From a virus: DNA of 20,849 bases. The translations under genes were made by a program, and so were the position numbers. The notes beneath the pieces are model-generated. The model saw only the letters and a program-made list of their open reading frames with translations. It ran no database searches and was not told the DNA's origin. The number at the start of each line of letters is the position of its first letter. Positions within the stretch are counted from its first letter, which is position 1. Shown here piece by piece: positions 1,233 through 20,849 of this stretch. The stretch spans positions 1 through 20,849 of IMG/VR virus record IMGVR_UViG_3300014501_000090; one strand, written 5' to 3'.

Positions 1233-1325
1233 GGGTGCCATGGGCAAGCGTACTCGCTTGCCCGTGTTTTCTTGCCTTCTACAACCAGCTCCACGGGCAA
1301 GCGAGTACGCTTGCCCATGGCACCC
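1233..1325. repeat. perfect 34-bp inverted repeat (REP/MITE-like)
   Basis: The arms at 1233-1266 and 1292-1325 are exact reverse complements of 34 bp, with a 25-nt spacer. Each arm contains a smaller near-palindrome, GGGCAAGCG-TA-CTCGCTTGCCC-like, so the element can fold as a cruciform or a long RNA hairpin. It fills most of the 196-nt gap between the connector gene and the 82-aa gene. There is no T-run that would make it a classical terminator on the minus strand. Confidence 0.9.
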
Positions 1326-1364
1326 GCTTCTAACGCCAGGCAGCTTGAGGCCGACTCTGCGTCC

Positions 1365-1613
1365 CTATCGACGAGCGATGACATCGGCGGACCTGCGCGT
1401 CCGACGCTCGGGCCGCAATAGTTTGTTCTGCGGCGGCGAAGGCTCGGCGTGACCGCACGGCAGCTCGCCCGCACCGGCCGGCTCCCGGCCCGCCTCCTCC
1501 TGCGGCACGCCAACTCCCCTCTGGATCAGCAGGTTGGCGATGTCCGGCATGTCCGGTTCGAGCACGTCGCCGGTGTCGCCGAATTCACATGGTTCGGTCA
1601 GTCTGATCTTCAT
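1365..1613 (-). CDS. small phage accessory protein with short beta domain
   Basis: This 82-aa protein has an N-terminal segment (residues 1-40: MKIRLTEPCEF, GDTGDVLEP, ANLLIQRGVGVP) of a type common in phage head modules. There it occurs as a small stand-alone protein of unknown role. The first 36 residues of the major capsid protein at 5191 have the same pattern: MKxIK, GEIVQVED, ADTLIENGMAE. The C-terminal half is Pro/Arg-rich and probably disordered. The ATG at 1613 is preceded by GGAG with 6 nt spacing, which supports this start. It lies 23 nt downstream of the methyltransferase-glycosyltransferase gene and is probably cotranscribed. I cannot assign a specific function. Confidence 0.65.
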   Translation of the reverse strand: MKIRLTEPCEFGDTGDVLEPDMPDIANLLIQRGVGVPQEEAGREPAGAGELPCGHAEPSPPQNKLLRPERRTRRSADVIARR

Positions 1614-1636
1614 AGTTCGCTCCATTGCGTCGGAGA

Positions 1637-2839
1637 TTATCTCAACGCCTCTATCGGCACGCCCTCCCGCCGGTACTCGCCTACGTCCTGAACGATCGTC
1701 GTCAACTGGCGGCTCGGGTGCAGCACGACCTCTTCGACGTGGCCGACGCAGACCATCGGGGCGATGAACACCGAATTCCCGGCCTGCCGCCAATTCAGCC
1801 AGAACTGAACGTCGGCGTCCGTCCGTTGCGGGCCCCAGGACCCGGACGGATCGGGGACCGACATGAACCAGGGTTTACTGAGCTTCGCCAGGCTTGCGGC
1901 GCGAATCATGGTCAGCCCGAAATGGGCGGAGCGGCACCCGATCATGTCGCGCTCGAACCACTCGGTCGGTATCTCGCCCAGCGGCATGCCGGCGTTGTCG
2001 GGGTGCGCGAAAGTAGCCAGCGGCCCCGGCATTCCGCGGGCCATCTGAACCGGCGCAAGGGCGTCAACGTCGGGGTTATCGGCGATCAGCCGGTACAGTT
2101 CGCGGACGTCGTCGGGCGTGAAGGCCGTATCGCTGTCGATGGCCAGGATATATTCGGCGCCAGCGCCGATCGCCATTTCAAAGAGCAGTTCCTGGACCTG
2201 TTGCCAATAGGGGCCGCTCGCCATCTTCACTGGGACCCCCAGGCTATGTATCGCGGTGAAGATGCAGTCCATGGCGGTAGACTGCACGTAGCGGGGCACG
2301 GACATCACTCCCATGATGCCGCCCGACCCGCCCTTGAGGTTCACCGGCTCGGGCTTGAAGCCCTCCAGATTCAGGCTCACCGGCAGCGCGGCGCAATCCG
2401 CGATTTCGCTCGTCCATTTGCGGACACGCCGGAACCCGGCCCCGTGCATCAAAACGCGGAGCTTGTTCTCGGTGAAGATGGCCCCGTGCCGGTCATTCTC
2501 GTCGACATGGCCGCCCACGAGATAACCTTCGATGCCGCGGTGGCCAGCCATGTGTTGCCGGCAGATCCAATCGAAATCCGGGACGGCGATCCGGATCGAG
2601 CCGCCGGGCCGGAGCACGCGGAACCACTCGGCAAGAACGGCGAAGGTCTGCCGATGGGAGAAATGCTCCAGGACGTGTGACGCACGGATGGAATCGACAC
2701 AATCGTCGCGGTATGCGAGCGGGAACACCTCGCCGCCGAACTTGCGGTCGACGTTGAGGTAACCTTGCGGCTGCGGGCCGTCGCCACCGCCGAGGTTCAG
2801 GCGGAGGGGCGCGGCAGGAGGATCGTGAGGTTGTGTCAT
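1637..2839 (-). CDS. methyltransferase-glycosyltransferase fusion
   Basis: This 400-aa protein has two enzymatic halves. Residues 12-145 form a class I SAM-dependent methyltransferase: LNLGGGD at 14-20 is the SAM-binding loop, followed by ASHVLEHF (53-60) and FRVLRPGGSIRIAVPD. Residues about 178-375 look like a GT-A glycosyltransferase, with EYILAIDSDTAF (229-240) holding the metal-binding DxD at D235 and D237. Sugar transfer plus methylation suggests modification of virion glycoproteins or host surface glycans, but the substrate is unknown. The gene sits inside the head module, which favours a virion-related role. The ATG at 2839 begins the conserved domain cleanly. No Shine-Dalgarno sequence is seen upstream. 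Confidence 0.75.
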   Translation of the reverse strand: MTQPHDPPAAPLRLNLGGGDGPQPQGYLNVDRKFGGEVFPLAYRDDCVDSIRASHVLEHFSHRQTFAVLAEWFRVLRPGGSIRIAVPDFDWICRQHMAGHRGIEGYLVGGHVDENDRHGAIFTENKLRVLMHGAGFRRVRKWTSEIADCAALPVSLNLEGFKPEPVNLKGGSGGIMGVMSVPRYVQSTAMDCIFTAIHSLGVPVKMASGPYWQQVQELLFEMAIGAGAEYILAIDSDTAFTPDDVRELYRLIADNPDVDALAPVQMARGMPGPLATFAHPDNAGMPLGEIPTEWFERDMIGCRSAHFGLTMIRAASLAKLSKPWFMSVPDPSGSWGPQRTDADVQFWLNWRQAGNSVFIAPMVCVGHVEEVVLHPSRQLTTIVQDVGEYRREGVPIEALR

Positions 2840-2909
2840 TGGTTTCTGGATTGCTTGAAGGATCCCTGCTGCCGGGTATGAACCAGCGGGAGGGTGTTGC
2901 TTAGGGCGC

Positions 2910-2992
2910 AGCGTAGGGGCATAGCGTAGGGGCGGCTTCAGCCGCCGGTTTGTCGCGACACCTGAACGCGGCGGCTGAAGCCGCCCCTACGC
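2910..2992. repeat. 24-bp inverted repeat with extra half copy
   Basis: The arms at 2924-2947 and 2969-2992 are exact reverse complements of 24 bp, with a 21-nt spacer. The core reads GTAGGGGCGGCTTCAGCC. A partial direct copy (AGCGTAGGGGC) precedes the left arm at about 2910-2920. It sits between the methyltransferase-glycosyltransferase gene and the decoration-type gene. Confidence 0.88.
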
Positions 2993-3029
2993 CGACGCTC
3001 CGCACCGCCCCGACAGCCCAATGGATAGG

Positions 3030-3524: not shown

Positions 3525-3563
3525 GATTGTTTCAAGCCTTTCGAAGAAGAGTGGCCGCTTTGT

Positions 3564-3670
3564 TCCCGCCCCCGGTACTCCGGGGGAGGGTTAGGGAGGG
3601 GGTTATTTCGATAATACAGCCACAATCCTAACCCCCTCCCCTGCCCTCCCCCGGAGTACCGGGGGCGGGA
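3564..3670. repeat. 42-bp imperfect inverted repeat
   Basis: The outer arms 3564-3590 and 3644-3670 match perfectly over 27 bp. After a 3-nt mismatch on each side, inner arms 3594-3605 and 3629-3640 match over another 12 bp, leaving a 23-nt AT-richer loop (3606-3628). The arms carry GGGAGGG/CCCTCCC words around CGGTACTCCGG. The element occupies half of the 206-nt gap between the capsid and decoration genes. A strong RNA hairpin here could separate their expression. Confidence 0.9.
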
Positions 3671-3730
3671 GAAAGACCGTCAAGGACGTTACTGACTCTC
3701 AAAGAGTCGACCGCGCACTACTCATTTGAA

Positions 3731-5191
3731 CTAACTCGACGCCGTGATCAGCCCCACCACCGGCCCGGCAACCAGTCCCATGACCGGATCGCGCGGGGTG
3801 CCGGCGGCGGATTCGCCGACGTCATGGACGCTGACGTCCACGCGCTCGGTGCCGCGGATGACGATTTCGTCCTGGATGAAGGCGTTGTCGGCGACGTCGC
3901 TGAATTGCAGCGTGGTGGCCCGGCGGTCGCCGAAGCTGGCCGCCAGGGACAAATCGCCCAGCAGGGCGACGACCTGGTTGACCGCCGATGTTTTCGGCAT
4001 CACCTGGGCGATCACCACCGGATAGCCGAGGAACGTCTTCTGGCGGGCGCCGTTGACGATCTCCTCGACGCGGTTCCCGCCGGCGGCCGTCGCCAGCCGC
4101 TGCATCACGCTGCCCCAGAAGGTGCGGTGGACGAACCAGGCGGTGTTGTCGGTGTCGGCAAATTCCGGGAGCAGCCCCACCACGGCGTTGAAGTCGGCCA
4201 GGGTAATGCTGTTGTAGCTGGAGCCGTAGCCGGTCCCGGATGCCACGCGCAGGCCCAGGATGTTGGCGATGGTGGGATCTACGTTGAGCAGCGCTTGGCG
4301 GACGCCGGTGATACCGCCGTAGGTGCTGGTTCCGTCGCCGTTGAAGCCGGCCTGGTCTTCCTTGTTGGCGAAGGCCCAGACGATCTCGCGGGCGTAGTCG
4401 TCGCCGAGGTTGATGACCGCATCTTCGTTGATTTCGTTGCTGATGCGGGTGAGGGCCATCAGCTTCTTGGCGGTCAGGCGGACGCGGTCCCAGGTCTTGT
4501 CGGAGTAGGACGCCGACTGGCTCTCACCGACCCAGTAGGCGGTTACGCCGCCGCGGCGCCGCGGGTCGGACCGGGTGTCGCTGGTCATCGGGACCTTCTT
4601 GGCGTACTTGCGGAAGACGCCGTACTTCTCGCGCAGGTCGATCAGGTCGTTCTCGAACTCATCGGGGACGAGGAACCCGGCAGAGGTGTTGTTGTTCTCC
4701 CGCGTCGCCTTGGTGCGCGGTCCGTCGGCCTCCACATCGACCGTGAAACCCAGCCCGTTCTTCCGGCACCACTCCACCGCCCAGGGCGTGTGGAACTGCT
4801 GGCTATGCTTGGTCGCGTTGGCCAGGCACCACATGCCGAAGCGATACGCTTTCTCGTACCCCTGGTCGGTGTTGGGGAAGCATTCCAGGGTCTTGTAGCG
4901 GCGACAGACGGCCCAGGGCCGCTGCTCGGGTTGTCCCGAGGGCAGGTCGGCCCGCTTCATCGCCGGCGCGAACTCGCGCCGGAACCCGGCCAGCGCCTCG
5001 CCGGCGGCGGCCTTGGCGATGTCGGAGAACGCCGACTTCAGTTCCGCCGCCGCCCCGCTGACTTCCGCGGGAGCGGCCGAGGCCTCAGCCATGCCGTTCT
5101 CAATGAGCGTGTCGGCGGCGTTGTCTTCAACCTGCACGATCTCGCCGGCCGAGCGGCCTTTGGCGGAGATGAGGTACTTGATCCATTTCAT
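3731..5191 (-). CDS. HK97-fold major capsid protein
   Basis: This 486-aa protein is the main shell subunit. Features typical of the phage capsid family are SAGFLVPDEFENDLIDL (start of the mature-like region, about residues 168-184), AYWVGESQSASYSDKTW, KKLMALTRISNEI and NKEDQAGFNGDGT. TAWFVHRTFW and FLGYPVVIAQVMP follow nearer the C-terminus. The N-terminal 36 residues carry an extra small domain resembling the 82-aa gene product at 1613. Residues about 37-165 are probably the delta/scaffold region removed by the neighbouring protease. The ATG at 5191 has AAAGGA 8 nt upstream, supplied by the local GACAAAGGACAAA repeat. The order portal-protease-capsid confirms the call. The N-terminal extension is long for this family. 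Confidence 0.92.
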   Translation of the reverse strand: MKWIKYLISAKGRSAGEIVQVEDNAADTLIENGMAEASAAPAEVSGAAAELKSAFSDIAKAAAGEALAGFRREFAPAMKRADLPSGQPEQRPWAVCRRYKTLECFPNTDQGYEKAYRFGMWCLANATKHSQQFHTPWAVEWCRKNGLGFTVDVEADGPRTKATRENNNTSAGFLVPDEFENDLIDLREKYGVFRKYAKKVPMTSDTRSDPRRRGGVTAYWVGESQSASYSDKTWDRVRLTAKKLMALTRISNEINEDAVINLGDDYAREIVWAFANKEDQAGFNGDGTSTYGGITGVRQALLNVDPTIANILGLRVASGTGYGSSYNSITLADFNAVVGLLPEFADTDNTAWFVHRTFWGSVMQRLATAAGGNRVEEIVNGARQKTFLGYPVVIAQVMPKTSAVNQVVALLGDLSLAASFGDRRATTLQFSDVADNAFIQDEIVIRGTERVDVSVHDVGESAAGTPRDPVMGLVAGPVVGLITASS

Positions 5192-5235
5192 TGTTTTTGT
5201 CCTTTGTCAGTGGTCAGTTGTCCGTTGTCAGTTGG
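5192..5235. repeat. GACAAA-type word repeat upstream of capsid gene
   Basis: On the minus strand this stretch is made of GACAAC/GACAAA/GACAAAGGACAAA words running up to the capsid start. It supplies the AAAGGA likely used as the ribosome binding site. It resembles the repeat at 160-226. Confidence 0.65.
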
Positions 5236-5340
5236 AATCGGAAATGGCATCTACGGGACTTGCCTGCTTGCTCCGGTCGAACGACCTGCAAGCTCCGGCG
5301 CTTTGACCAAGGGTCAACCCTGATGTCTCTGAAAGGTCTC

Positions 5341-5448
5341 TCGCGTGTCGAACCGCGAGCTTCCGCTTGCGGCTATCAAAGAACGCTTAAGAGTTACGTT
5401 CTGATATCCTTGATAGCCGCAAGCGGAAGCTCGCGGTTCGAGACACGA
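5341..5448. repeat. 31-bp perfect inverted repeat
   Basis: The arms 5349-5379 and 5410-5440 are exact reverse complements over 31 bp. The core is GAGCTTCCGCTTGCGGCTATC. Inside the 30-nt spacer a second short pairing, AGAACG (5380-5385) with CGTTCT (5397-5402), prolongs the hairpin. The outer flanks match imperfectly. It lies in the capsid-protease gap of 265 nt. A 6-bp pair, TTGACC/GGTCAA, lies nearby at 5303-5317. Confidence 0.9.
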
Positions 5449-5456
5449 AATGACGC

Positions 5457-7010
5457 TTACACCTTCCCGGTCGCCCGCGCAAACGCTTCGGTCAATTCCG
5501 CGCGGATGAGCGACGGAAGCTCCCCTCGCGCATCCTCGACTGCTCTGCGAATAGCAGTTCGAATCGTCTCCGGCCGCACGAATGCCGCCGAGGCGGCACG
5601 GTCGATTTCCGCGGCCTTGGCCGCCGCCGCGTCGGCAGCGTGGATTGCCTGCATGAGCCGGCGCGCAGCGTCGGCAATCTCTGTTTGCCCCTCCTGCGAC
5701 GCTCGGCTCTCGGCGGCCGCGACGCCCCGCCGGTAAACCTCGCCGCGCTTGATGACCGGGTACTTCCAATGCGCCTCGGTATCGACCCCCGCCAGGTCGT
5801 CCACGGCTAGAGAATCGTCGGGATGAGCGGACCGGTGATCTTCGGCGGTGAACGACCAGGGGGCGTCAGTCAGCTTACCTTGTGCGATCAATGCCTCGGC
5901 TCGGGCATAGCCGGCGTGGTGCAGATGAATTCCCGCCGTGCCTTTCAACTTTGCATCGACCGGCGGCTGCGTCGGCGCGTCGAACGTCGAGCCGCAGTAT
6001 TCACAGGTATAGCCGGGCGATTCTTCGGGAGGTGCCGATGAGTCCTGCGCCCGTCGAGCCACACCATCATTACTGCCGCACTGCGGACACGGCGGCATAG
6101 GCTCCGCGAGAACGTTCGCCGAAGCGGTTGGCGAATCAGCGGGGGCGAGGAGCGCCCCGCCGGCGCCTGATTCGGCAGCTTTCGCATCGGATGGGGAAGT
6201 GTCCAGCACAATGATCTCGCGTTGCAGGGCCGGTCCGGCGTTGGGAGTAACGGTCCGCAGTGCGGACCCTACGGGATCGGCTGCCCGGTAGCGCAGCGGG
6301 CTTCGCCATCCGTCGAGGAACGGCGTCATGGCCTTGGTGATCAGCTCGGCGACGCCGGAATCGAACACGCCCGCCTCGACGCCCTTGGCGACGGCCAGCA
6401 TCTCGGCTTCAGGGTTGCACGGCACCGGGACGACGCTGTATTCGATCCCCGCCCAGCGGTCGATGACCGGAACGCCTTTCAATTCAGGCCGGCGGGCGAT
6501 TTCCTCGCCCGTGGCCTCGCGGATGTTCAGCGGCAGGAAACCGATGCTCTTGCCGGTGCAGGTCGGCACCGGCTGCTGCAACAGGTGCAGCACCGCCGAC
6601 GGCAGCCAGGGGGCATCGCCCCAGTCGGCCGGTTTGGCCGGATAGTGCGTCTTGGCGATGAGCCGGCTCCCGGCCGCGGCTGATTTCGGTTTGATCCACC
6701 AGCACGACCCGGCCGGGAGCTGCCGGTAATCGTGCGCAAACGGCACGACGCGGTTATACGCCGACCAGTCGCCCCCCGCCGGCAACACACATTCGCGGTC
6801 GCGGTCGAGGGCGTCGGTGGTAATGGTGCTGACGTCGGTGCGCTCGCCGGGGTCCAGCTCGAGCTCCGCCGCGGGAGCCGAGCGGCGCCGGTAGCCGAAA
6901 TCGCGGGGCAGCCCGCGCGACAGCGCGTCGATCCGCCGGGCCGTGGCCTCGGGGAGGAGAAAACCTGAGGCGGCGTGTTCGACGATAGTGGGGAGGGTTC
7001 TGGGCTTCAT
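5457..7010 (-). CDS. HK97-type prohead protease with zinc-ribbon insert
   Basis: This 517-aa enzyme would cleave capsid precursors during head maturation. Residues about 50-215 resemble the prohead serine protease: VSTITTDALDRDRECVLP, then VVPFAHDY carrying the likely catalytic His, and EYSVVPVPCNPEAEML carrying the likely catalytic Ser. Next comes an Ala/Ser linker, a CPQC...CEYC pair that looks like a zinc ribbon, and then a conserved-looking block (HWKYPVIKRGEVYRRG). The C-terminus is an Ala-rich helical region, possibly coiled coil or scaffold. Family members are usually about 200-300 aa, so the C-terminal half is an extension. I chose the ATG at 7010, 34 nt after the portal stop; the longer reading frame starts inside the portal gene. 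No Shine-Dalgarno sequence is visible. Confidence 0.78.
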   Translation of the reverse strand: MKPRTLPTIVEHAASGFLLPEATARRIDALSRGLPRDFGYRRRSAPAAELELDPGERTDVSTITTDALDRDRECVLPAGGDWSAYNRVVPFAHDYRQLPAGSCWWIKPKSAAAGSRLIAKTHYPAKPADWGDAPWLPSAVLHLLQQPVPTCTGKSIGFLPLNIREATGEEIARRPELKGVPVIDRWAGIEYSVVPVPCNPEAEMLAVAKGVEAGVFDSGVAELITKAMTPFLDGWRSPLRYRAADPVGSALRTVTPNAGPALQREIIVLDTSPSDAKAAESGAGGALLAPADSPTASANVLAEPMPPCPQCGSNDGVARRAQDSSAPPEESPGYTCEYCGSTFDAPTQPPVDAKLKGTAGIHLHHAGYARAEALIAQGKLTDAPWSFTAEDHRSAHPDDSLAVDDLAGVDTEAHWKYPVIKRGEVYRRGVAAAESRASQEGQTEIADAARRLMQAIHAADAAAAKAAEIDRAASAAFVRPETIRTAIRRAVEDARGELPSLIRAELTEAFARATGKV

Positions 7011-7044
7011 CGGTTGATGGGAGGTAGTGGATTCGTCTGGGTGA

Positions 7045-8622
7045 TCACACGGGCAGTGCCGGCGCGTCGACCGGTCGCGTAGCAGGAGCACACGCCTCCG
7101 GTTTCCCCGTCACCGCATCCACCGGCGTCATGATGTTCGGCACCAGCGGGGTTTCGCCCCAGGGGACCGGCTCCAGGTCCAAGGCGGCGCGCATTTCGTT
7201 GCGGGTGACCGCGCCGAGCGATGCCGCCACGCGGTTCTGCTCCAGGGCGAAGACCTCGTCTTCGGCCAGCGGCGAATCGAACGCCAGCAGCAGGCGGCCG
7301 CTGGTGTCGTACATCCGCAGCAGGCGTCGCAGGGCGCCGCCGAGGCGGTTGCAGCGGGGTTGGATGGTTCGCTTGGCGTATTGGTATTCGGCGGACTTGG
7401 CACTGGCCAGGTTGGCCTCGTTCAGGTCGAGCATGGCGTTGGGCACGCCGAAGGCGTTGGCGATGTCGGTCTTGATGGACTTGGCGCGTTCGAGTTCGAC
7501 GACGTCGCCGGGCTTCCAGCCCAGGACCTGGAGTGAGCCGGGGTATTCGCTGACCAGCAGGCCGCCGCGGCCGGCGCGGGCGAATTCGGATCGCATGGCG
7601 GAGCGGACTCGGCTAGCTTCGGCCTCACCGATGCCGCCCCCTTCGCTGTCGCCGCGCGGGGACCAGATGGCGTCGGGGCGGGCCATGTTGTCGAGCAGGG
7701 CGTTCACGTGGGCGTCGCCCTTGCGGGCGATGCGGATTTTTTCGATTGCCGCCATGAGCGGCGCGTACCCGCCGCGATAGGGGTCGTCGGGGTCGGGGTT
7801 GCTGAAGCGGAGCACGTCGCGCGGGTCGTAGCGGTAGCCGCCGGCGCCGTAGGTCGAGCCGTATTCATAGCAGGCGACCACCCGCCGGCCCGAGGGGTCG
7901 GGGACCTCGCGGACCAGGTGCGAGCGGAGCAGGCGGACCTGCCGCGGGACGCCCAGGGCGTCGCGGTCGAGCAGCCAGTAGGCCCGGCCGAGGGATTCGA
8001 GATAGAGCTGCGTCAGGTAGATGAGATCGTGGCCGCTGAGGTCGGGCTGGCCGTCATCATCGTTTGCATCTTCATCAAATGCTTCGGGATCGCTGGCGCC
8101 GACGCCGATGTGCTGCACGTCGAGCAGGCGGAGCAGCGGGTGATCGGTGATCTCTTCGATCTTCGATCCGCCCACGGCGAAGGCGGCGCCGGTTCGGCCC
8201 CGGCCCAGTTGGCGTACTACCTTTGTCGCGACAGGCCGGGCGGCCCAGCGCGTGACCAGCTCATTCGGGGCGGTGCGGACGAACAGCCGGAGCCGCGTCG
8301 ATGCGACGGCATCGGCATTCAGGTGGGCGCAGGCATAGGCCACGCCGGTGATTTGCCGGATCAATTCGCGCGGCGTGGGCGCGCGGTCCTTGCGGAACTC
8401 GTCGGCATACGGCGCGCCGTGCGGCAGATAGAACATCCCGCCGGAATAGCCGGCAGACGCGGACTCGGCCGCCTTGGTAACGGGTGCGGGGATGCCGGTC
8501 GCCGCGGGGAGGGAGTAGATGGGTTCAAATAGCACGGTGGGGCCTTGGGGTTTTCTGTAGTCGCAGTGGGTGACGTGGCTCGTGACGTTGTTTCGGAGTA
8601 GTACCAGGCGGGGGATCAACAC
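7045..8622 (-). CDS. portal protein
   Basis: This 525-aa protein would form the dodecameric ring at one capsid vertex through which DNA enters and leaves. Portal-family hallmarks are DHPLLRLLD, SLGRAYWLLDRD, DVLRFSNPDPDDPYRGG and PLMAAIEKI. GVPNAMLDLNEANLASAKSAEYQYAKRTIQP and a C-terminal EMRAALDLEPVPWGE follow. Length fits the HK97-type portal group. The GTG at 8622 is 6 nt after the large terminase stop, suggesting translational coupling. An internal GTG at 8535 (beginning VLFEPIYSLP) is an equally credible start, since the first 29 residues look unconserved. The gene lies between large terminase and protease, the expected order. Confidence 0.9.
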   Translation of the reverse strand: MLIPRLVLLRNNVTSHVTHCDYRKPQGPTVLFEPIYSLPAATGIPAPVTKAAESASAGYSGGMFYLPHGAPYADEFRKDRAPTPRELIRQITGVAYACAHLNADAVASTRLRLFVRTAPNELVTRWAARPVATKVVRQLGRGRTGAAFAVGGSKIEEITDHPLLRLLDVQHIGVGASDPEAFDEDANDDDGQPDLSGHDLIYLTQLYLESLGRAYWLLDRDALGVPRQVRLLRSHLVREVPDPSGRRVVACYEYGSTYGAGGYRYDPRDVLRFSNPDPDDPYRGGYAPLMAAIEKIRIARKGDAHVNALLDNMARPDAIWSPRGDSEGGGIGEAEASRVRSAMRSEFARAGRGGLLVSEYPGSLQVLGWKPGDVVELERAKSIKTDIANAFGVPNAMLDLNEANLASAKSAEYQYAKRTIQPRCNRLGGALRRLLRMYDTSGRLLLAFDSPLAEDEVFALEQNRVAASLGAVTRNEMRAALDLEPVPWGETPLVPNIMTPVDAVTGKPEACAPATRPVDAPALPV

Positions 8623-8628
8623 GCGAAC

Positions 8629-10248
8629 TCAAATACCCACATCCACATCGCGCCACGCCCTCGGGTCCCTTTCGTTTTCGCTTGCGTCAGCCGCCTCCGC
8701 GCCCTCCGCCGCCTGCCTTCCCACCCCACGCGCTCCCATGCGTTTCTGCACCCACATGGCGGCGTGGGCCAATTCATCGACTTGATCACTGTGCTCGCTG
8801 TTGGGCCAGGAGAGCAGTTCCTGTTGCAGGTCCCAGAGCCACGGAGCGTCCTTCTTGAAGTAGACGGTGCCGGCGGCCATGCGGATCTCGGCGGTTTCGC
8901 TGCGTGCTTCCTTGCTGCCACGGGCCGGGATCGCTTTGACCGTAAGGCCGCTGGCCTTGATCGTCTGCAGGATGCCTTGCCCGATGCCGTTCTTTTCCAC
9001 GCCGATCCAGGGCAGTCTGAAGTGCTCACAGATTTTGATGGCCTCGGTTACGACCTCAGGGGCTTCGAGCTGTCCTCGGAAATGGTGCACCTTGAGCATC
9101 TCGCCGCCGGGCGTGATGGCCCATACGCCGATCACGGTGTAGCAGGGGTTATAAGCGCCCCCACGGCCGGAGGCGCTGGTGGTAGCGGGGTCCATCATGC
9201 CGAAGTGGTCGCAGTCGTCGATCGGGACGCGTTTCGGCCCGAGGCCGTCGCCGTGCAGCGTGTAGAACTCGCCGTCTTCGGTGAAATACCGGAACCACTC
9301 GCGCTTGAACCGTCCGCCGCCGGCCGGGGCGGGACGCTGCTGGAATTGGCCGGCGTACCCCATCGGGCCCAGACGCAGCTTGAAATCGGCGATTTCGCCG
9401 GCGCCGATCCTCTGGGGCCAGAGGAGTTCGCCCTGGGCGCTGCGCGGGTCGGCCCAGCCCAGCGATGTGGCGCAGCGCCGCTCCGGCTCGAACTCGGCGG
9501 GCAGGCACAGGTGCTCGTAGCCGCCCTGCTTGAGCACGTGGCCGGACAGGTCGCCGTCGGTGACGCGCTGCATGACAATCACTTTTGCGCCGGTCCGCGG
9601 GTCGTTCAGGCGGGTGCTCATCACTTCGTCCCACCAAGTGAGCGTCTCTTCGAGTTTCTTTCGGCTATCCTTTTCCTTGACGTTGTGCGGATCGTCGACG
9701 ACCACGATGTCGCCGCCTTCGCCGGTGTTGGACCCTCGGACGCCGGTGGCGATCCGGTAACCGGTCTGGTCGTTGTCGAAGCGGGTCTTGGCGTTCTGGT
9801 CGCCGGTGAGACGGAAGCGATCGCCCCACCGTTCCTGGTACCAGGGCGAGCCGATGATGGAGCGGCACTTGCGCGAATCGCGGGTGCTTAAGCCGGCAGC
9901 GTAGGCACTGTACAGCCAGCGCGTCTGCGGCCGTGATGCCCACAGCCAGCACATCCAGAAGACCGACACGCACAGGCTCTTGGCGTGGCGCGGCGGAACG
10001 TTGATCAGCAGGTTCCGCAACTGTCCTGCCGACACCGCTTGCAGGTGCTCGCAGATAGCGTCGAGGTGCCAGCCCGGCACGAACACAGTTCGCGGCTCGA
10101 CGATGTGCCAGGCGCTCCGCACGAAATCATGCAGGCTCGCCTGGCACAGGGCCGCTTCGATCCGCGCCAGCGTCGGGACCGGGTAAGCATCGCGCATCAG
10201 CGTCGCCATCGGCGGCGGGGAGTTCAACGGATTTGCTTTTTTTTCCAC
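8629..10248 (-). CDS. terL: terminase large subunit
   Basis: This 539-aa protein is the packaging motor ATPase and headful nuclease. NVPPRHAKS (residues 83-91) is the deviant Walker A of phage terminases. IVVVDDPH (181-188) is Walker B, and EGGD/RGSN precede it. The nuclease half shows MMDPATT (D353), VEKNGIGQG (E418) and HSDQVDELAHAAMW (D488, D491), fitting an RNase H-like metal site. The start is uncertain: GTG at 10248 gives a 122-nt overlap with the small subunit, while ATGs at 10209 and 10197 give shorter overlaps. An A8 run follows the GTG. The last 40 residues are charged and probably disordered. Confidence 0.93.
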   Translation of the reverse strand: MEKKANPLNSPPPMATLMRDAYPVPTLARIEAALCQASLHDFVRSAWHIVEPRTVFVPGWHLDAICEHLQAVSAGQLRNLLINVPPRHAKSLCVSVFWMCWLWASRPQTRWLYSAYAAGLSTRDSRKCRSIIGSPWYQERWGDRFRLTGDQNAKTRFDNDQTGYRIATGVRGSNTGEGGDIVVVDDPHNVKEKDSRKKLEETLTWWDEVMSTRLNDPRTGAKVIVMQRVTDGDLSGHVLKQGGYEHLCLPAEFEPERRCATSLGWADPRSAQGELLWPQRIGAGEIADFKLRLGPMGYAGQFQQRPAPAGGGRFKREWFRYFTEDGEFYTLHGDGLGPKRVPIDDCDHFGMMDPATTSASGRGGAYNPCYTVIGVWAITPGGEMLKVHHFRGQLEAPEVVTEAIKICEHFRLPWIGVEKNGIGQGILQTIKASGLTVKAIPARGSKEARSETAEIRMAAGTVYFKKDAPWLWDLQQELLSWPNSEHSDQVDELAHAAMWVQKRMGARGVGRQAAEGAEAADASENERDPRAWRDVDVGI

Positions 10249-10657
10249 GGGAGAGAAGGGCCAGGCGAAGCAGGGCGATCATCTGGCGTTGTTGCTCGAC
10301 GGTGAGCCGGCCCCAGTCATACATTTCGCGCTTGCGGGCGGGCCGTTCCTCGCCGGGTTGGTTGCGTCGGAACTGCCTCCGCCAGCGCCGTTCCAGCACC
10401 CACGCCGACGCCTGCCAGGCCGCCGACTTGGTGATTTTGGTCAGGTGGTGGACTTTTCCCTTGTGGATCGCCTGGCGCAAGCCGCGTTCGAACATGGGAT
10501 CGCTTTGCCGCCTGGCCCGGATGACCGAAACCGGCACGCCGGCACATTCGGCGGCGTCTTTCAGCGATGTCCCCACGCTGACGCAGCCGTAAACGAGGCC
10601 GACGCCAACATCGGTGAGGCTGGCCTCACCGACCGGCTCACTGGATTCTGCATTCAT
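10127..10657 (-). CDS. terS: terminase small subunit
   Basis: This 176-aa protein would recognise the packaging site and hand DNA to the large subunit. Residues 18-55 form a helix-turn-helix-like segment (GCVSVGTSLKDAAECAGVPVSVIRARRQSD). AAWQASAWVLERRWRRQFRR (79-98) matches the W..ERR motif typical of small terminases. The C-terminal 40 residues, after the A8 tract, are Gly/Pro/Asp-rich and overlap the large subunit gene. The ATG at 10657 lies 11 nt after the stop of the proline-rich gene. The position directly upstream of terL makes the call firm, although the primary sequence is divergent. Confidence 0.8.
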   Translation of the reverse strand: MNAESSEPVGEASLTDVGVGLVYGCVSVGTSLKDAAECAGVPVSVIRARRQSDPMFERGLRQAIHKGKVHHLTKITKSAAWQASAWVLERRWRRQFRRNQPGEERPARKREMYDWGRLTVEQQRQMIALLRLALLSRGKKSKSVELPAADGDADARCLPGPDAGADRSGPVPGEPA

Positions 10658-10668
10658 GAAAAATGGGC

Positions 10669-11532: not shown

Positions 11533-11615
11533 CGGGCACCTCTGCGAACGGTCATCGCCGTGGCGATTTGAAACCGGCAGCGCCAAATCAGAAACTAAAT
11601 GGCTACTCTGGTTGG

Positions 11616-11644
11616 ACGATACCTCGCGCGTCATTTTGACGCAA
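11616..11644 (-). promoter_or_regulatory. candidate promoter of the second paralogue
   Basis: On the minus strand a -35-like TTGCGT (11639-11644) and a -10-like TATCGT (11616-11621) are separated by 17 bp. The same layout with the same -10 occurs before the paralogue at 12627. GCGTCA and TGACGC (11628-11642) form a 6-bp inverted repeat over the -35 side, a possible operator. Confidence 0.45.
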
Positions 11645-11712
11645 CGAATTTCCGAAAGTCTGGCAGTCTTTTTCGGCTGGAGCAGTCCTTCTCTACAGAA
11701 GCCGAGTCGGGC

Positions 11713-12627: not shown

Positions 12628-12713
12628 CGGGCACCTCCGTGAAAAGGGAACCGTGGTGGCGATCCGCAGCCGGCAACGCACGCAAGTTCGACAAGAATCG
12701 CCTGGAAAGACCG

Positions 12714-12742: not shown

Positions 12743-12835
12743 CAACGTTCATGACGTTTGCGAAATTCCCGACACTAGCAGATTTTTCACTGGGCACCGG
12801 CTGAAAAGAATCACAAGGCAAGCAAATACAACAAT

Positions 12836-13909
12836 TTACCGATATTCGAACGAGGCCACGGCCCTTCCCGCACTCAGCCCATCCGAGCCTGCCCCGCGCT
12901 TTCGGCAATCGCGGCGGCGTTGGAAACCGGTCTTGCGGAACCCCACACACTTCCAGTTCAGGCTCCTGCCCAGCGACGCGATCATCGAAGGGTGCGAGGT
13001 CGTCAGGTTCACACGCCGGCCCATCGCCCGGCGCAGCGAAGCAACTGCATCGAGCACCCGTCCGCCGATCCCCAGGCCCTGATAGTCGGGCAGCACAACG
13101 ATGCGGGAGACCCGGTCCCGGCCGACCCGGCCTGTAAGCGGCAACACCGCGCAGAACGCCGCCGGCTGACCTTCCCACGTCGCCAGATAACACTGGGCGG
13201 CGGGGTGAAGGCTGCCGTTCAGATAGTGATGGCGCGCAAACAGCCGCCAAGCCGCACCCCGGCAACGAAACAGCTCGATTTGGATTTGAGGGCGCCGAAG
13301 CCGCCCCCTTGCCAGCTCACGGCTGGCCATATCGACCACCCAGTCCGGCTCGAGCCATTGCGCAATGTCGTAATGGCAACTGACGGCAACGAACTTGCGG
13401 GCGATCTTCCCAGAGCGGATGGCCCGCGCCACCGCCGCCGACCCCACGCGGGCGACCGTGCGGTCCACAACGCTGGTGAACTCATCAAACACCACTAATT
13501 CCCGCCCCGCCAGCAGTGCTCGGGCCAGGTCGCAGCGGAACTTTTCGCCGTTGCTAAGCACCGCATACGGCTTGACCCAGGCCGGCGGGCTGCTGAAGCC
13601 GACTGCCGTCAGGGTCTGCGTGACGTGCTTCACCGGCAACTCGCCGAACCCGTCGATCACCGCCCGCGCGGCATCCCATTCGCCCGCCTGGTGGACGTCC
13701 GAGCCGAACGCTTGGCGGGCGATGGTGGATTTCCCCGAGCCGGAGGGGCCGACGATCAGGCCGATTTGCCAATCCTCGTCGGGCGAAGGGACCTCGACGG
13801 AGAATGTCTCCTGGCTGGTCTCGGCCAGCGCAAGGTCGAACATGCCGGCGATCTGAGAGACGCGGAACGATGGGTGAACGGGGCAGGAGACGGTGGCGTG
13901 AATGAGCAC
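12836..13909 (-). CDS. ABC-type ATPase fused to GNAT acetyltransferase
   Basis: This 357-aa soluble protein has a complete ABC nucleotide-binding domain: Walker A GPSGSGKS (54-61), signature LSNGEKFR (118-125, a variant of LSGGQ), Walker B LVVFDE (138-143), D-loop SVVD and switch His179 in VSCHYD. Residues about 208-335 form a GNAT domain with the acetyl-CoA loop PDYQGLGIGGRV (274-285). There is no membrane segment, so it is not a transporter. The architecture corresponds to the conserved group of ABC ATPases fused to a predicted acetyltransferase (COG2401), whose role is unknown. The GTG start at 13909 is supported by GGAGGAGGG (13919-13927), whose last bases touch the hexamer array. Neighbours are the ParB-like gene upstream and the exported paralogues downstream. 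Confidence 0.85.
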   Translation of the reverse strand: MLIHATVSCPVHPSFRVSQIAGMFDLALAETSQETFSVEVPSPDEDWQIGLIVGPSGSGKSTIARQAFGSDVHQAGEWDAARAVIDGFGELPVKHVTQTLTAVGFSSPPAWVKPYAVLSNGEKFRCDLARALLAGRELVVFDEFTSVVDRTVARVGSAAVARAIRSGKIARKFVAVSCHYDIAQWLEPDWVVDMASRELARGRLRRPQIQIELFRCRGAAWRLFARHHYLNGSLHPAAQCYLATWEGQPAAFCAVLPLTGRVGRDRVSRIVVLPDYQGLGIGGRVLDAVASLRRAMGRRVNLTTSHPSMIASLGRSLNWKCVGFRKTGFQRRRDCRKRGAGSDGLSAGRAVASFEYR

Positions 13910-13925
13910 GGCTCATATCCCTCCT

Positions 13926-14045
13926 CCTAATCCTAATCGTAATCCTAATCGTAATCCTAATCGTCGGTTCCAAAGCGGGGCCTCCCATGACCTCCCATGG
14001 CACATTGCGATTACGATTACGATTAGGATTACGATTAGGATTAGG
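13926..14045. repeat. inverted hexamer arrays (GGATTA/CGATTA), copy 1
   Basis: On the + strand 13926-13963 reads as CCTAAT and CGTAAT hexamers. 14008-14045 reads as CGATTA and GGATTA hexamers. The two 38-bp arrays are reverse complements with one mismatch, separated by 44 nt. They lie between the ParB-like and ABC-ATPase/GNAT genes. Confidence 0.92.
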
Positions 14046-14074
14046 AAGGCGAATGGATAGTGGACATCCAACAG

Positions 14075-14641
14075 TCACGTCGTCAGCACCCGGCACTGCA
14101 GCCCCTCGCCCGTCAGCCGGTCGTACACTTGCTGCTGCTCGGCTTCGTCCCGGCATTCGACGACGACCTGGAAGGACTCCCCAACGGTCGCCTCTTCGGC
14201 GGAGCCTGTCGGCTCGACCGCTCCCAGGCCGGCATCGAGCTTCGCCAGTTCCTCCGGCGTAAACCCGACTCCGGCCAGGTCGAGGCCTACTTCGCCGGCC
14301 AGGTGAGTCAACTCGGGGACGTCCCAGGTACTCAGCTCGTTGGAACGGTTGTCTCCGACGGCGAGCTGCGCCTTCTGGCGAGGCGACAGCCCGCAGCGGC
14401 GGACGGCGACGAGCGTCTTGCCGTCGGCATCGACGACGCGAACCTTTTCGATTCCCGCGCGGCCGGCGGCGGCGAGCACGCCGTTGCCCGCGAGCACCAC
14501 GCCCTGTTCGTCGATCACGATCGAACGTGCCGCGCCTACCTGCCCCAGCAGATCGGCGATCACCTCCAGGTTCCGCTCCGGATGACGCCGGGCGTTTTTT
14601 GGGTCGGAGGTCAGGTCGTTAATGCTTTGGATCGATTTCAT
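14075..14641 (-). CDS. ParB-like (ParB/Srx-fold) phage protein
   Basis: This 188-aa protein has a ParB N-terminal-like domain (residues 3-100). DPKNARRHPERNLEVIADLL is followed by IVIDEQGVVLAGNGVLAAA, where AGNG replaces the GxGR-type box of chromosomal ParB. SPRQKAQLAVGDNRSNEL follows. No helix-turn-helix for parS binding is evident. The C-terminus (about 154-188) has a short alpha/beta segment. Such phage proteins often lie near terminase genes or DNA methyltransferases; possible roles are CTP-dependent DNA binding, nuclease or packaging regulation. The ATG at 14641 follows GTGACAAACG with no Shine-Dalgarno sequence. The gene is bracketed on both sides by inverted hexamer arrays. Confidence 0.8.
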   Translation of the reverse strand: MKSIQSINDLTSDPKNARRHPERNLEVIADLLGQVGAARSIVIDEQGVVLAGNGVLAAAGRAGIEKVRVVDADGKTLVAVRRCGLSPRQKAQLAVGDNRSNELSTWDVPELTHLAGEVGLDLAGVGFTPEELAKLDAGLGAVEPTGSAEEATVGESFQVVVECRDEAEQQQVYDRLTGEGLQCRVLTT

Positions 14642-14674
14642 CGTTTGTCACTGGTCGACGGCCGCATGTTCCTA

Positions 14675-14822
14675 CTAATCCTAATCGTAATCGTAATCCT
14701 AATCGTAATTGTAATCCTGGTTTGTTATTGGTTAGGTCATGGGCGGAGCCGCCTGGAAATCGACGATCCCCGACCAACGATTAGGATTAGGATTACGATT
14801 AGGATTAGGATTAGGATTAGGA
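14675..14822. repeat. inverted hexamer arrays (GGATTA/CGATTA), copy 2
   Basis: The left array at 14675-14716 (CTAATC/GTAATC words) and right array at 14778-14822 (CGATTA/GGATTA words) are inverted relative to each other, with a spacer of about 60 nt. Same word family as 13926-14045 but with a different order of variants. It fills most of the gap between the 205-aa gene and the ParB-like gene. Confidence 0.9.
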
Positions 14823-14849
14823 ATTAGGACTGACCAAGGCCGGCAACGT

Positions 14850-15467: not shown

Positions 15468-15499
15468 GGTGAAATCGATAGCCGCGATCTTTTAGCGGC

Positions 15500-17158: not shown

Positions 17159-17172
17159 AGGTGGGGGGGTTT

Positions 17173-17342
17173 AGCCGACGGCTTTTGCCGTCGCCCTGAG
17201 CGCAGCCGACCGCTTCAGGCGGTCGCCCTGAGCGCAGCGAAGGGTCTCTTCCTTTCGCGATCGAAGAGACCCTTCGCTGCGCTCAGGGCGACGGCAAAAG
17301 CCGTCGGCTGCGCTCAGGGCGACGGCTTGAAGCCGTCGGCTG
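17173..17342. repeat. composite inverted repeat, CCCTGAGCGCAG family
   Basis: A perfect 29-bp core pairs 17222-17250 with 17264-17292 across a 13-nt spacer. Outside it, blocks of GTCGCCCTGAGCGCAG alternate with small hairpins such as GACGGCTTTTGCCGTC on both sides, partly out of register. The word CCCTGAGCGCAGCGAAGGG belongs to an interspersed repeat type I have seen in several GC-rich environmental genomes. The right edge lies inside the glycosidase gene and encodes its last few residues. Confidence 0.88.
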
Positions 17343-18837
17343 TTTTCGCGAACCGTACCGCCGCCTTGAACTTGGGTTGGGTCAGATCAGACACGTCGTC
17401 GGTCAGCCCGAAGATCTTGCCTGGTCCGACGGAGTTGCAGATGTTGTATTGGATGAGCGGGCCGTCGCCTTTCCAGGCTTGCCAGTAGGCATAGAGCAGG
17501 TCCTCCATGCGCGGGTCCTTCTGGGTGGCGGGGTCGAATTTGGTGCCGGTATAGTCCGGGCCGGATTCGTAGCAGCAGCTTGCCAGTCCCCACTTTCTGG
17601 CCAACTCGTGTTGCGCCTGAACGTGCTTGCCGTTGAGGAGCAGGACGTGCCAGTCGTTGGGCTGCATGTCCGGCGTGATGGCCGCGTATGGGGCGGTGGC
17701 GATGCCATAGAGGTACTCGCTCGGCTGCCCGACTTTTTTTGAGAGGAAGTCGAGTCCGTCGGAGAGCGTCGCGAGGTTGGCGCCCTGGCCGCACAGGACG
17801 GGCCGGACACGCTGCGGCCCCAGGGCGGCGCGGAAGATGGTGCCAAGGCGCGCGGTTTCCCGTGCGGTGCGCTGCCAGCCGGCGATTTCGGGGTTGGGGT
17901 CGAACGACACGCCCGCCGACCGCTCCTGCGCCGCGGCGTCCAGGTTGATCTGGTGCTGGCCGAACGACCGGTTCCAATTCTCGTTGCCAAACTCGACATA
18001 GACTTTGAGGTCGGGCCGCAACTGCTGCTTGACCAGGGCGGCCAGTTGCTTGCGATAGTCGTCGTCGGCCCCAACCGGCACATTGAGCCAGAGGTCGGCG
18101 CCGAGGCGGTTGCAGATATCGATCAGGTCTTCGACCGGCCCGCCGTGGCCACCGGTCTCGCTGTACATCGGGGAATCGTGAGTGGGCCGGTCGGCCCAGT
18201 GGACGACTGGATTGCTGTTGGTGACGACAAAATCCATTCCCCGGATCACGCCCGGCGACACGGCTTTGAGCATATTGATGAATTCATCAGTGAACACCTT
18301 GCCGGCCTCATCCGCCTCGGCGTAACCCGGGCGGATCACTTTGAGCCGGCCGGTCAGCTTGGCGCCGATGAACTGAACATTCAAAACCTTCGAGCCGGCC
18401 GGGTCGAACGTCAAATCGGCGCGAACGGTGCGGGTGCCGGCATCGATAGTTTGGTTGGTGACCTTGGCGCCCCGACCGGCACGGATCTCCCGGACGGTGC
18501 CGGGAAAGACGATTTTGTAAGTGCCGCCCATCGAAGGCGCGGCGCCTTCGATCAAGAGCACGCCGAAATCGCCGCTGGGCCAACCGTTGGGGCCGAGTTC
18601 GGCCTTGCCGTCGCGCGGGTGGGCGATGGTGTCGAAGCCGTAGGCGGTGCGGAGCGCATCGATGTAGGTGCGCGAGCGCGACCAGGGGATGAGCCGTTCC
18701 AGGTTCATGCCGAAGCGCGGGTTGGCGGGCGGGGTGGCCGGCTGAGGACCGGCCGCGCGGGCCGGACCCAGGAACCCGACGGACAGGCAGATGGCAGATA
18801 CCGCGACGGAAACGATTCGATTCGATGACACTCGCAT
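17314..18837 (-). CDS. exported clan-A-like glycoside hydrolase
   Basis: This 507-aa protein starts with a Sec signal peptide (residues 1-29, SVAVSAICLSVGFLGPARA-A). The main domain looks like a TIM-barrel glycosidase of clan GH-A. VYVEFGNENWN (279-289) carries the Asn-Glu pair, with E286 as likely acid/base. CCYESGPDY (421-429) offers E424 as nucleophile. WLNVPVG and DWHVLLLNG fit barrel strands. I chose the ATG at 18837 because it begins the signal peptide; a TTG at 18873 overlaps the upstream stop. The last four to six residues come from the intergenic repeat. Export plus position beside the fibre and a membrane protein suggest a wall- or polysaccharide-degrading lysis or conversion enzyme. 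Substrate unknown. Confidence 0.65.
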   Translation of the reverse strand: MRVSSNRIVSVAVSAICLSVGFLGPARAAGPQPATPPANPRFGMNLERLIPWSRSRTYIDALRTAYGFDTIAHPRDGKAELGPNGWPSGDFGVLLIEGAAPSMGGTYKIVFPGTVREIRAGRGAKVTNQTIDAGTRTVRADLTFDPAGSKVLNVQFIGAKLTGRLKVIRPGYAEADEAGKVFTDEFINMLKAVSPGVIRGMDFVVTNSNPVVHWADRPTHDSPMYSETGGHGGPVEDLIDICNRLGADLWLNVPVGADDDYRKQLAALVKQQLRPDLKVYVEFGNENWNRSFGQHQINLDAAAQERSAGVSFDPNPEIAGWQRTARETARLGTIFRAALGPQRVRPVLCGQGANLATLSDGLDFLSKKVGQPSEYLYGIATAPYAAITPDMQPNDWHVLLLNGKHVQAQHELARKWGLASCCYESGPDYTGTKFDPATQKDPRMEDLLYAYWQAWKGDGPLIQYNICNSVGPGKIFGLTDDVSDLTQPKFKAAVRFAKTADGFKPSP

Positions 18838-18869
18838 GGATTGGATCAGACGGCGGCGCGATCCGGCAG

Positions 18870-19214
18870 TCAAGCGTGAATCGAGGAGGCAATCGCCCTG
18901 GCGAGCAGAGCCACAACGATGCCGGCCACCAGCCAGAGGAACCGCGAGTAGTTGGCCAGCGACCGCTCGGCGCGGTCCATGCGGACGATCAAACCCGGCG
19001 CCCCGTTGCCGTTGACGGCCTTTTCAAGCTTCGCCAGCGTCTTGTCCTGGGTCGCCAGGTTGAGCTTGATCTCGGCCAATCCCAGTACGACAGTCTGTAA
19101 CTCCCCAACTTGCTCGTGCCGAGCCTTGCGAAGGTGTTCCACCTCGGCGGTCAGGCGCTCGATGCGGTCGTCGTCCTGGCAGTCCCTTGTCCTCGGTCCT
19201 CTGTCATTTGTCAT
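18870..19214 (-). CDS. coiled-coil plus C-terminal membrane anchor (holin/XhlA-like)
   Basis: This 114-aa protein has a long heptad-like helix (residues about 20-70: DRIERLTAEVEHLRKARHEQ, IKLNLATQDKTLAKLEKAV). A NGNGAPGLIVRMDRAE turn motif is seen in small phage proteins. One membrane segment lies near the end (FLWLVAGIVVALLARAIA). The layout resembles XhlA/holin-associated proteins. The start is uncertain: the ATG at 19214 and a GTG at 19229 both lie inside the TGACAAA-type repeat, so the first 15 or so residues are repeat-encoded. An internal GTG in the coiled coil could be the original start. The stop overlaps the upstream TTG option of the glycosidase gene. Confidence 0.6.
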   Translation of the reverse strand: MTNDRGPRTRDCQDDDRIERLTAEVEHLRKARHEQVGELQTVVLGLAEIKLNLATQDKTLAKLEKAVNGNGAPGLIVRMDRAERSLANYSRFLWLVAGIVVALLARAIASSIHA

Positions 19215-19263
19215 TTGTTGTTTTGTCACTGGTCACTGATCACAGGCCACTTGTCACTTGTCA
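19190..19263. repeat. TGACAAA/GGACAAG-type repeat spanning a start site
   Basis: On the minus strand this stretch is a run of TGACAAG, TGACCAG, TGACAAA and GGAC words extending from the glycosyltransferase stop into the 5' end of the coiled-coil gene. It is the same word family as at 160-226 and 5192-5235. Confidence 0.75.
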
Positions 19264-20127: not shown

Positions 20128-20166
20128 GGTGATGGTGGTCAACTCGGAATCGTTCACGATTCAGTG

Positions 20167-20186
20167 ACAAGCACGCAAATGCTTGT
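20167..20186. other. 7-bp hairpin upstream of glycosyltransferase
   Basis: ACAAGCA and TGCTTGT pair across a 6-nt loop, 10 nt upstream of the possible GTG start and about 40 nt upstream of the ATG. It could be an operator or an RNA hairpin; nothing else in the 129-nt gap (20128-20256) is recognisable. Confidence 0.35.
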
Positions 20187-20256
20187 GAAGCTGGGGACAT
20201 AGGCGCGATATCATCGTTTCTCGCAGGTGGTAGTCTCACGGACCGGTTTCCCCCTG

Positions 20257-20520
20257 TCATGCGTGGTCCGTGGGGAGCAGTGAAAAGGTCCGAAAACGGA
20301 CCGGCTTCTTGTTCTGCGACATGGCTCGGGCATATCTTTCGAGGGCGGGCTGCTGGTCCACCGCCCGCTTGCGGGCACGCGACAGGTGCTTCTTAACGGC
20401 CTGGACAGTGACGCCGAGCATCAGGGCGATCTCGCGCCGGCTCCGGCCCAGGACACGCTCCTCAGCCACACGCTGTTGCAATCGCGTCAGTTGAACGGCC
20501 GCCATATGTTTTTCATTCAT
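20257..20520 (-). CDS. small HTH protein, sigma-70 region-4-like
   Basis: This 87-aa protein is mostly helical. Residues 12-53 (TRLQQRVAEERVLGRSRREIALMLGVTVQAVKKHLSRARKR) form a helix-turn-helix very like sigma factor region 4 or LuxR-type domains, with REIALMLGVT and VKKHLSRAR as the two helices. No region 2 or other domain exists, so it is not a full sigma factor. It is likely a small DNA-binding regulator, perhaps of the late operon downstream. The ATG at 20520 has GGAAGGGG (20527-20534) as a good Shine-Dalgarno sequence, which rejects a longer reading frame running into the array. The C-terminal 25 residues are unremarkable. Confidence 0.7.
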   Translation of the reverse strand: MNEKHMAAVQLTRLQQRVAEERVLGRSRREIALMLGVTVQAVKKHLSRARKRAVDQQPALERYARAMSQNKKPVRFRTFSLLPTDHA

Positions 20521-20563
20521 TGCTAGCCCCTTCCATATAGATTGCCGGGGTGGGGTACAAAAG

Positions 20564-20849
20564 GTGAAACGTGAAGACGTGAAACGTGAAAACGTGAAAA
20601 CGTGAAAACGTGAAACGTGAAGACGTGAAACGTGAAGATGAAAACCTGAGGAGTTGAGGACGTGATGGCTGCTGATTACTTGATGTGTCTGCGTCCACGT
20701 TTTCACGCTTCACGTCCTCGCGTTTCACGTCTTCACGCTTCACGTCTTCACGTTTCACGTCCTCACGTCTTCACGTTTCACGTCTTCACGTCTTCACGTC
20801 TTCACCTCTTCACGTTTCACGTCTTCACGTCTTCACGTTTCACGTCTTC
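20564..20849. repeat. large inverted array of ACGTGAA words
   Basis: This fills nearly all of the 329 bases right of the HTH gene. The left array (20564-20638) repeats GTGAAAC/GTGAAGAC words of 7-9 nt. After a spacer (20639-20692) the right array reads as TTTCACG/CTTCACG words and continues to the window edge. The arms are inverted, and the right one is at least 150 nt long. No gene is seen in it. Confidence 0.92.

Follow-up and report, generated by a model that had tools for sequence, protein, structure and literature searches.

Inverted repeats of REPIN-like and tandem-array type at the gene junctions of a putative Planctomycetota phage

The window analysed here is the whole of the 20,849-bp virus record IMGVR_UViG_3300014501_000090, which carries phage genes on its minus strand and appears to cover the packaging and head genes of a Planctomycetota phage, the phylum name resting on Brocadiia record L068 (genome G001). 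Eight long inverted repeats (IRs) lie at its gene junctions, mostly unrelated in sequence and all built as two inverted arms around a central spacer, which raises the question of how such different sequences came to share one plan and one kind of site. Our reading, to which we give a probability of roughly 0.7, is that the phage gene junctions have been colonised by repeats of the host lineage, some of repetitive extragenic palindrome (REP) and REP doublet forming hairpin (REPIN) type and others tandem arrays, and that the palindrome pairs were copied by REP-associated tyrosine transposases (RAYTs).

All eight IRs were recovered where a first-pass annotation had placed them, as long and almost wholly intergenic repeats. 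In a non-overlapping set the arms measure 24–49 nt with 86–100% complementarity, a different alignment extending those of the last element to 70 nt (86%), against about 24–80 bp or more as first proposed, and the spacers span 21–91 nt, a wider range than the proposed 13–60 nt. Twenty dinucleotide shuffles of the window yielded no IR in 19 cases and one in the remaining case, versus eight in the window itself (3.84 per 10 kb). Seven elements are free of any coding base; the eighth (17173–17342) overlaps a gene 3′ end by 29 nt, and the stop codon of gene 17314–18873 falls inside it. The RNA folds are about 11–24 standard deviations more stable than those of shuffled sequences (50 shuffles each). 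The description of the arms as unrelated is true of most, no mutual match being found at E ≤ 1e-4, with the exception of the elements at 13925 and 14675, which belong to one TAATCC/TAATCG hexamer family flanking a single gene.

By their internal structure the IRs are read as two kinds, five palindrome pairs (elements 1–4 and the element at 17173–17342) and three inverted arrays of 6–8-bp units (Table 1). One detector and one rule were applied throughout, the strict form being a perfect internal palindrome in the arm with a stem of 6 or more. Such a palindrome was found in four of the eight (elements 1, 2, 3 and 17173–17342); the rest comprise two tandem arrays and two elements just outside the thresholds, that at 5341 and the 7/8-mer array at 20559 (0.68). 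Internal palindromes occur in 2–5% of shuffled arms, in 33 of 84 IRs from chromosomes of the host class and in 8 of 26 IRs from nine near phage loci, three of these eight being tandem-array-like by eye. The four elements also have the REPIN doublet architecture of two inverted REP palindromes around a short spacer, and element 4 has it imperfectly. An outward tetranucleotide foot, GTAG, is present in element 2, where the GTAG ends face outward, and in a single REP at 6251–6272; elements 1, 3 and 4 have no clear common foot.

Both kinds are abundant in the chromosomes of the host class, by which we mean the Planctomycetota class of genome G122; array families common to this genome and the phages had drawn attention to it. 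Forty 20-kb stretches (800 kb; 20 around a homologue of the window's ABC/GNAT gene in 19 genomes and 20 at arbitrary sites in six of those genomes) contained 84 IRs (1.05 per 10 kb), with a mean of 2.1 and a range of 0–12 per stretch; 18 stretches had none and two exceeded the window's eight. Because chromosomes of this class carry the same two kinds of repeat, the density belongs largely to the host lineage and not, as first thought, to a single phage module. This comes near the refuting condition set at the outset, a density equal throughout the host genome, although the window exceeds the host mean. The family of the 6251–6272 REP (loop NN) occurs in 27 of 148 host-class genomes, with up to 65 copies in one, and a reversed control pattern in none. 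When all eight elements were used as one DNA query, matches were obtained in 18 of 294 genomes, mostly to the arrays and the CCCTGAGCGCAGCGAAGGG core, an undercount because only two candidates per genome were scored. For the element-1 core GCTTGCCCATGGCACC, with ≤1 mismatch allowed, 31 of 294 genomes had a match and about 25 had one to a reversed control, as expected by chance. The ACGTGAA array pattern had no exact match in the viral_contigs set; direct ACGTGAA arrays with 90–92% identity were found in genome G172, of another class, which was for that reason first considered a host candidate and then rejected for having only 0.25 IRs per 10 kb. Elsewhere, 73 other loci with a related terminase or capsid (63 viral and 10 from genomes, chosen by terminase or capsid similarity; 998,708 bp) held six IRs, or 0.06 per 10 kb. 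The nine nearer phage loci (105,746 bp) held 26, a biased sample as they were picked for bearing IRs. Arm-like matches of 40–44 nt to element 3 were found in two phage loci, L170 (11595–11638) and L149 (7345–7384).

In the host class the repeats are also linked to transposase genes. We sought IRs within 600 bp of 23 class-3-like RAYT-like loci (the 30 best-scoring loci minus seven with too short a flank), and 8 of the 23 had IRs of the same family on both sides, the criterion being a shared run of 12 nt (exactly 12 at one locus, 27 or more at the others). Among 600 random positions, seven had IRs on both sides and none had IRs of the same family. Matching repeats on both sides were further recognised by eye at 7 of 20 hand-picked loci (L295, L299, L302, L303, L305, L306 and L308), which were mostly weaker Y1 hits from four genomes; the gene of L299 is already counted among the eight. 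The GTAGGGTCCGC REP, of the 6251–6272 family, brackets a frame-broken gene at L347 in genome G328 that is RAYT-like by motif alone; at three places in G328, inverted copies of this REP stand 613–634 nt apart. Y1_Tnp matches, IS200 copies included, were present in all 20 genomes tested and A3 profile matches in 64 of 98 class genomes; neither was used as a RAYT count because weak or IS200-type hits are included. A putative cognate RAYT gene flanked by the same REP was seen for families of hosts and of relative phages, and not for window elements 1–4.

Comparison with related phages shows the elements appearing and disappearing at gene junctions. Gene order is kept in the contigs L170, L002, L171 and L150. 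The terminase, portal and ABC proteins, together with the L170 capsid, are 78–93% identical among the window, L170 and L002, and L171 is more distant. At a given junction, a close relative usually has another element or lacks one altogether. The arrays at the ParB–ABC junction are of TAATCC type in the window, of GGGTAGTG type in L170 (weaker, and found by the relaxed detector only) and of CACAGAG type in L171, the latter two with units unrelated to the window's. At the junction of the presumed protease and capsid genes, element 4 is present in the window and nothing in L170, and the sequence after the element is conserved. Between terminase and portal, the window and L170 have nothing, L002 has an element of the 17173 family (4760–4840; 85% over 81 nt) and L171 a REPIN copy; between portal and protease, the window has nothing, L002 two IRs, L170 a transposase unit and L171 an array-like IR. 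At the start of the head-tail adaptor gene the window has element 1 and L170 no IR, and the IRs of L171 and L150 are array-like. Exceptions, in which contigs agree, are the portal–protease family shared by L170 and L002 and the REP in the protease gene, which is at the same place in the window and L002 and absent from L170. Few occupied and empty junction pairs were aligned, and these are too diverged for target-site duplications to be read. The terminase–portal–protease block, described at first as lacking IRs, does lack them in the window; their absence is not a rule, because an in-frame REP lies at 6251–6272 and relatives carry repeats at those junctions.

Two of the relatives carry a candidate transposase gene of their own. 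In L170 an intact gene for a 190-aa protein (P0001) lies between portal and protease and is flanked by two IRs of one family that share a 33-nt block at 91%. HxH at residues 98/100 and Y158 are invariant across nine aligned sequences, and the predicted fold (mean pLDDT 76) has its best Foldseek match (E 1.5e-4) in 4er8, the structure of a RAYT in complex with a REP hairpin. On this model P0001 has an HUH motif and a catalytic tyrosine in a TnpA fold. At E ≤ 0.1, eight of the nine aligned proteins match the NCBIfam family NF047646 and seven match PF01797. L002 carries the same flanking-IR family at its portal–protease junction without the gene, and the window has neither. A second such gene (31.5% identity) is found in L171 with its own repeat at both ends, and two further copies of that repeat lie at the abc–terS and terL–portal junctions. 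Profile scanning of viral_contigs found the transposase only in L170 and L171, using one strict peptide pattern that may miss others. A tblastn search with the class-3 protein of L305, which is a host and not a phage protein, gave partial matches in 6 of 50,697 phage and 4 of 72,556 plasmid records, mostly annotated as IS200/IS605 or transposase.

Together these findings suggest how the palindrome pairs may have arisen. Elements 1–4 and 17173–17342 would each consist of two inverted REP palindromes, the architecture of REP, bacterial interspersed mosaic element (BIME) and REPIN sequences, and would be copied as single-stranded hairpins by an HUH-Y1 transposase of the RAYT (TnpA-REP) superfamily. 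Many REP families would have spread from the host lineage to the phage, each with its own transposase, which would give unrelated arms on one constant plan; selection would leave elements only where no gene is broken, which would confine survivors to junctions or in-frame sites. The transposase could be supplied by the host chromosome, or by the phage itself once a REP-flanked gene has entered, as in L170 and perhaps L171. The data show the architecture, the abundance in the host class, the linkage of genes and repeats in hosts and relatives, and the turnover at junctions; that such transposases copied these very elements, and that movement was from host to phage, we infer. The three tandem arrays would be a second kind of host-type repeat. 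A shared generating process, as first suggested, is accordingly likely for the palindrome pairs, through a RAYT-type HUH-Y1 transposase, and unlikely for all eight, because the three arrays are a different kind of element.

A number of results weigh against colonisation by RAYT-copied host repeats. In the window itself no RAYT gene was identified, the palindrome of element 4 is imperfect and fails the strict test, and RAYTs do not account for the tandem arrays. Elements 1, 2 and 4 had no copy outside the window among the loci compared, and the element 2 family was found in none of the 148 host-class genomes. Aligning the terminase against the genome_contigs set gave 10 loci with a best identity of 51%, and the window's own host was not found. 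The window is still denser in IRs than the host mean (8 versus 2.1 per 20 kb). Flanking IRs were absent from 13 of the 23 host RAYT-like loci and one-sided at two. Of 27 loci retrieved by the ABC/GNAT and portal genes (L145–L171), eight bear IRs (seven distinct contigs) and 19 none, among the loci without IR being L146, at 64% identity. As for the phage-borne genes, P0001 scores 14.3 bits against NCBIfam REP_Tyr_transpos (NF047646; cut-off 80) and has no Pfam match, PF01797 included. Its VIA-align Z is higher for IS608/ISDra2 transposases (13.2) than for 4er8 (10.7), so P0001 may be a plain IS200-like element. The L171 gene lies at a contig end and may be outside the phage.

Could the hairpins instead be functional RNA structures, selected by the phage from sequence at hand for 3′ end processing, termination or differential stability within a polycistronic message? 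The called genes of the window are all co-directional, seven of the eight elements have a gene on either side, the last being terminal on the contig, and every fold is highly stable (z about −11 to −24), as such a role would have it. We nevertheless consider this origin improbable, given that orthologous junctions in relatives have no hairpins or unrelated ones, that the same kinds fill host chromosomes and that one REP lies in frame inside the protease gene; a function may have been acquired after insertion. All eight could also stem from one sequence-independent inverted duplication, by fold-back synthesis or template switching at junctions and not by transposition, which fits a constant plan with differing sequences. 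In-register matching of array arms does average 0.92 over 27 arrays, versus 0.85 once the order of units is shuffled, and 23 of the 27 exceed the null, but p < 0.05 was reached in one of 27 and the two window arrays that entered the test gave p values of 0.24 and 1.0, the third not qualifying. The in-register excess over 49 IRs (0.93 versus 0.69) is partly selection, because the detector picks the best register. Palindrome-pair families, moreover, are multi-copy in host genomes and flank transposase genes, neither of which is predicted by local duplication, and we hold this origin to be very doubtful. Mirrored unit order being only a weak aggregate signal, the idea that one process generated all eight was given up.

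It is likewise unlikely that the window is a decaying prophage or a wrongly assembled piece of metagenome, whose repeats either built up from the host once phage function was absent or are assembly artefacts. The record, at 20.8 kb, has no stated completeness and its host was not identified, which would suit such an account; its gene order, however, agrees with that of four other metagenome contigs (L170, L002, L171 and L150), the main genes are open, and equivalent elements are present on contigs from other metagenomes.

The palindrome pairs resemble REPIN/BIME systems with class 2 RAYTs and GTAG REPs, as described in the available portions of three studies (PMC8266576, PMC3733652, PMC6006769), in being inverted pairs of short palindromes, mostly intergenic, with several families per genome. 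The likeness extends to the GTAG foot of element 2 and of the 6251–6272 REP, whose family brackets the broken RAYT-like gene in G328. They differ in lying in a phage head module, in the mutually unrelated families and in that cognate transposases were not identified. The host-class proteins are matched by the class 3 TnpA-Y1 transposases, for which the available part of Quentin et al. 2018 (PMC6006769) reports 24 proteins (11 from Planctomycetes, 6 from Acidobacteria and 5 from Proteobacteria) with atypical flanking structures. The host proteins share with these the HxH, W and Y----Q-type motifs in most cases (YVLHKQ and others), a length of about 155–200 aa, an origin in Planctomycetota, and palindromes that flank part of the loci and differ between genes. 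The L170 protein departs from them in having YILDHE, with no Q. Feet are CnGA in that part of the study and more varied by eye here (CTGA-GCC, GCGA-GCC), and gene and repeats lie here within phage contigs.

Among intergenic heptamer tandem repeats, those of cyanobacteria known as short tandemly repeated repetitive (STRR) sequences are another example. The TAACTGA repeats of Beggiatoaceae and Cyanobacteria, also intergenic, were counted as 169 direct sets and one indirect repeat in the accessible text of PMC4679880. These are like the window's in being short 7-bp tandem units at bacterial gene junctions, and the arrays described here differ in being inverted, hairpin-forming and made of many unrelated 6–10-bp units. 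Direct heptamer arrays of CAAATGA/TTGTCAG type also occur at gene junctions in the window (5204–5234 and 19225–19263, in addition to that in Table 1).

Table 1 Repeat elements and the repeat-free block of the 20,849-bp window
Feature	Position	Strand	Description
REPIN-like element 1	1233..1325		34-nt arms, 100% complementary, 25-nt spacer; arm palindrome GGGCAAGCG-TACT-CGCTTGCCC; directly upstream of head-tail adaptor gene
REPIN-like element 2	2924..2992		24-nt arms, 21-nt spacer; GTAG foot, one base, GGCGGC-TTCA-GCCGCC
REPIN-like element 3	3564..3670		42-nt arms, 23-nt spacer; palindrome CCCCCGG-TACT-CCGGGGG; capsid/next-gene junction
REPIN-like element 4	5341..5448		39–42-nt arms, 24–30-nt spacer; palindrome CCGCGAGC-TTCC-GCTTGCGG, one mismatch; protease/capsid junction
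Single REP GTAGGGTCCGC-AC-TGCGGACC	6251..6272	-	In frame within protease gene
Inverted tandem array, TAATCC/TAATCG hexamers	13925..14046		39-nt arms, 44-nt spacer; between ParB-like and ABC/GNAT genes
Inverted tandem array, TAATCC/TAATCG hexamer family	14675..14822		Other side of ParB-like gene
Compound nested element	17173..17342		Palindrome CGACGGC-TTTT-GCCGTCG joined to CCCTGAGCGCAGCGAAGGG and its reverse
Inverted tandem array, ACGTGAA(R) 7–8-mers	20559..20849		Extends to contig end
Direct (non-inverted) heptamer array CAAATGA	162..225		Beside head-tail adaptor gene 3′ end
Protease (by position)–portal–large/small terminase block	5457..10657	-	Without inverted repeats in window

Genes named in the window are those for a head-tail adaptor, capsid, portal, small and large terminase, a ParB-like protein, an ABC/GNAT fusion and a tail-like protein; several proteins had no name after pfam and phrogs scans, and the protease label for 5457–7091 is by position only, with no family match. 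Non-coding sequence makes up 11.3% of the window by our own gene calls. The variable middle of the presumed protease gene (L170 10786–11958) holds in-frame REP-type sequences, at 6251–6272 in the window and at about 11595–11638 in L170. The protein of 17314–18873 has matches at 27–40% in 29 of 294 Planctomycetota genomes. A tandem pair of similar proteins of 321 and 322 aa (10669–12681) is secreted-looking by eye; the second has a CxxCH motif, and both are matched in relatives. The ParB-like gene adjoins the ABC-ATPase/GNAT fusion (12836–14641). Because the ABC/GNAT protein has strong matches in many of the 297 genomes of G122's class, with a ParB-like match beside the homologue in 19 of 20 neighbourhoods examined, the pair may be chromosomal or lie in a conserved prophage. 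A role in DNA modification may be considered, as a lead only.

The new part of these findings is the phage-borne RAYT–REPIN units. Among the titles and abstract openings listed from open-licence PMC papers (12 of 1,215 for one query on REPINs or RAYTs with phage or plasmid), none describes RAYTs or REPINs from a phage of planctomycetes. In the available portion of a modelling study (PMC8049555), RAYTs are treated as passing vertically and as not seen on plasmids, and REPINs are held unlikely to transfer replicatively unless the RAYT is copied too; PMC6006769, in its available part, infers horizontal transfer from patchy gene distribution without naming a vehicle. Where a phage module holds a class-3-like transposase together with its flanking REPINs, the two would move as one unit of this sort. 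It is possible, though we advance it tentatively, that Planctomycetota phages are working RAYT–REPIN vectors, in which a head-module transposase and its REPINs seed phage junctions and new hosts by the horizontal, replicative route that the modelling denies to REPINs, with a second hairpin class of inverted short tandem arrays moving alongside. These phages would offer a system for testing the spread of REPINs by phage, and they show how repeats alike in plan but not in sequence can indicate a host lineage for a metagenomic phage.

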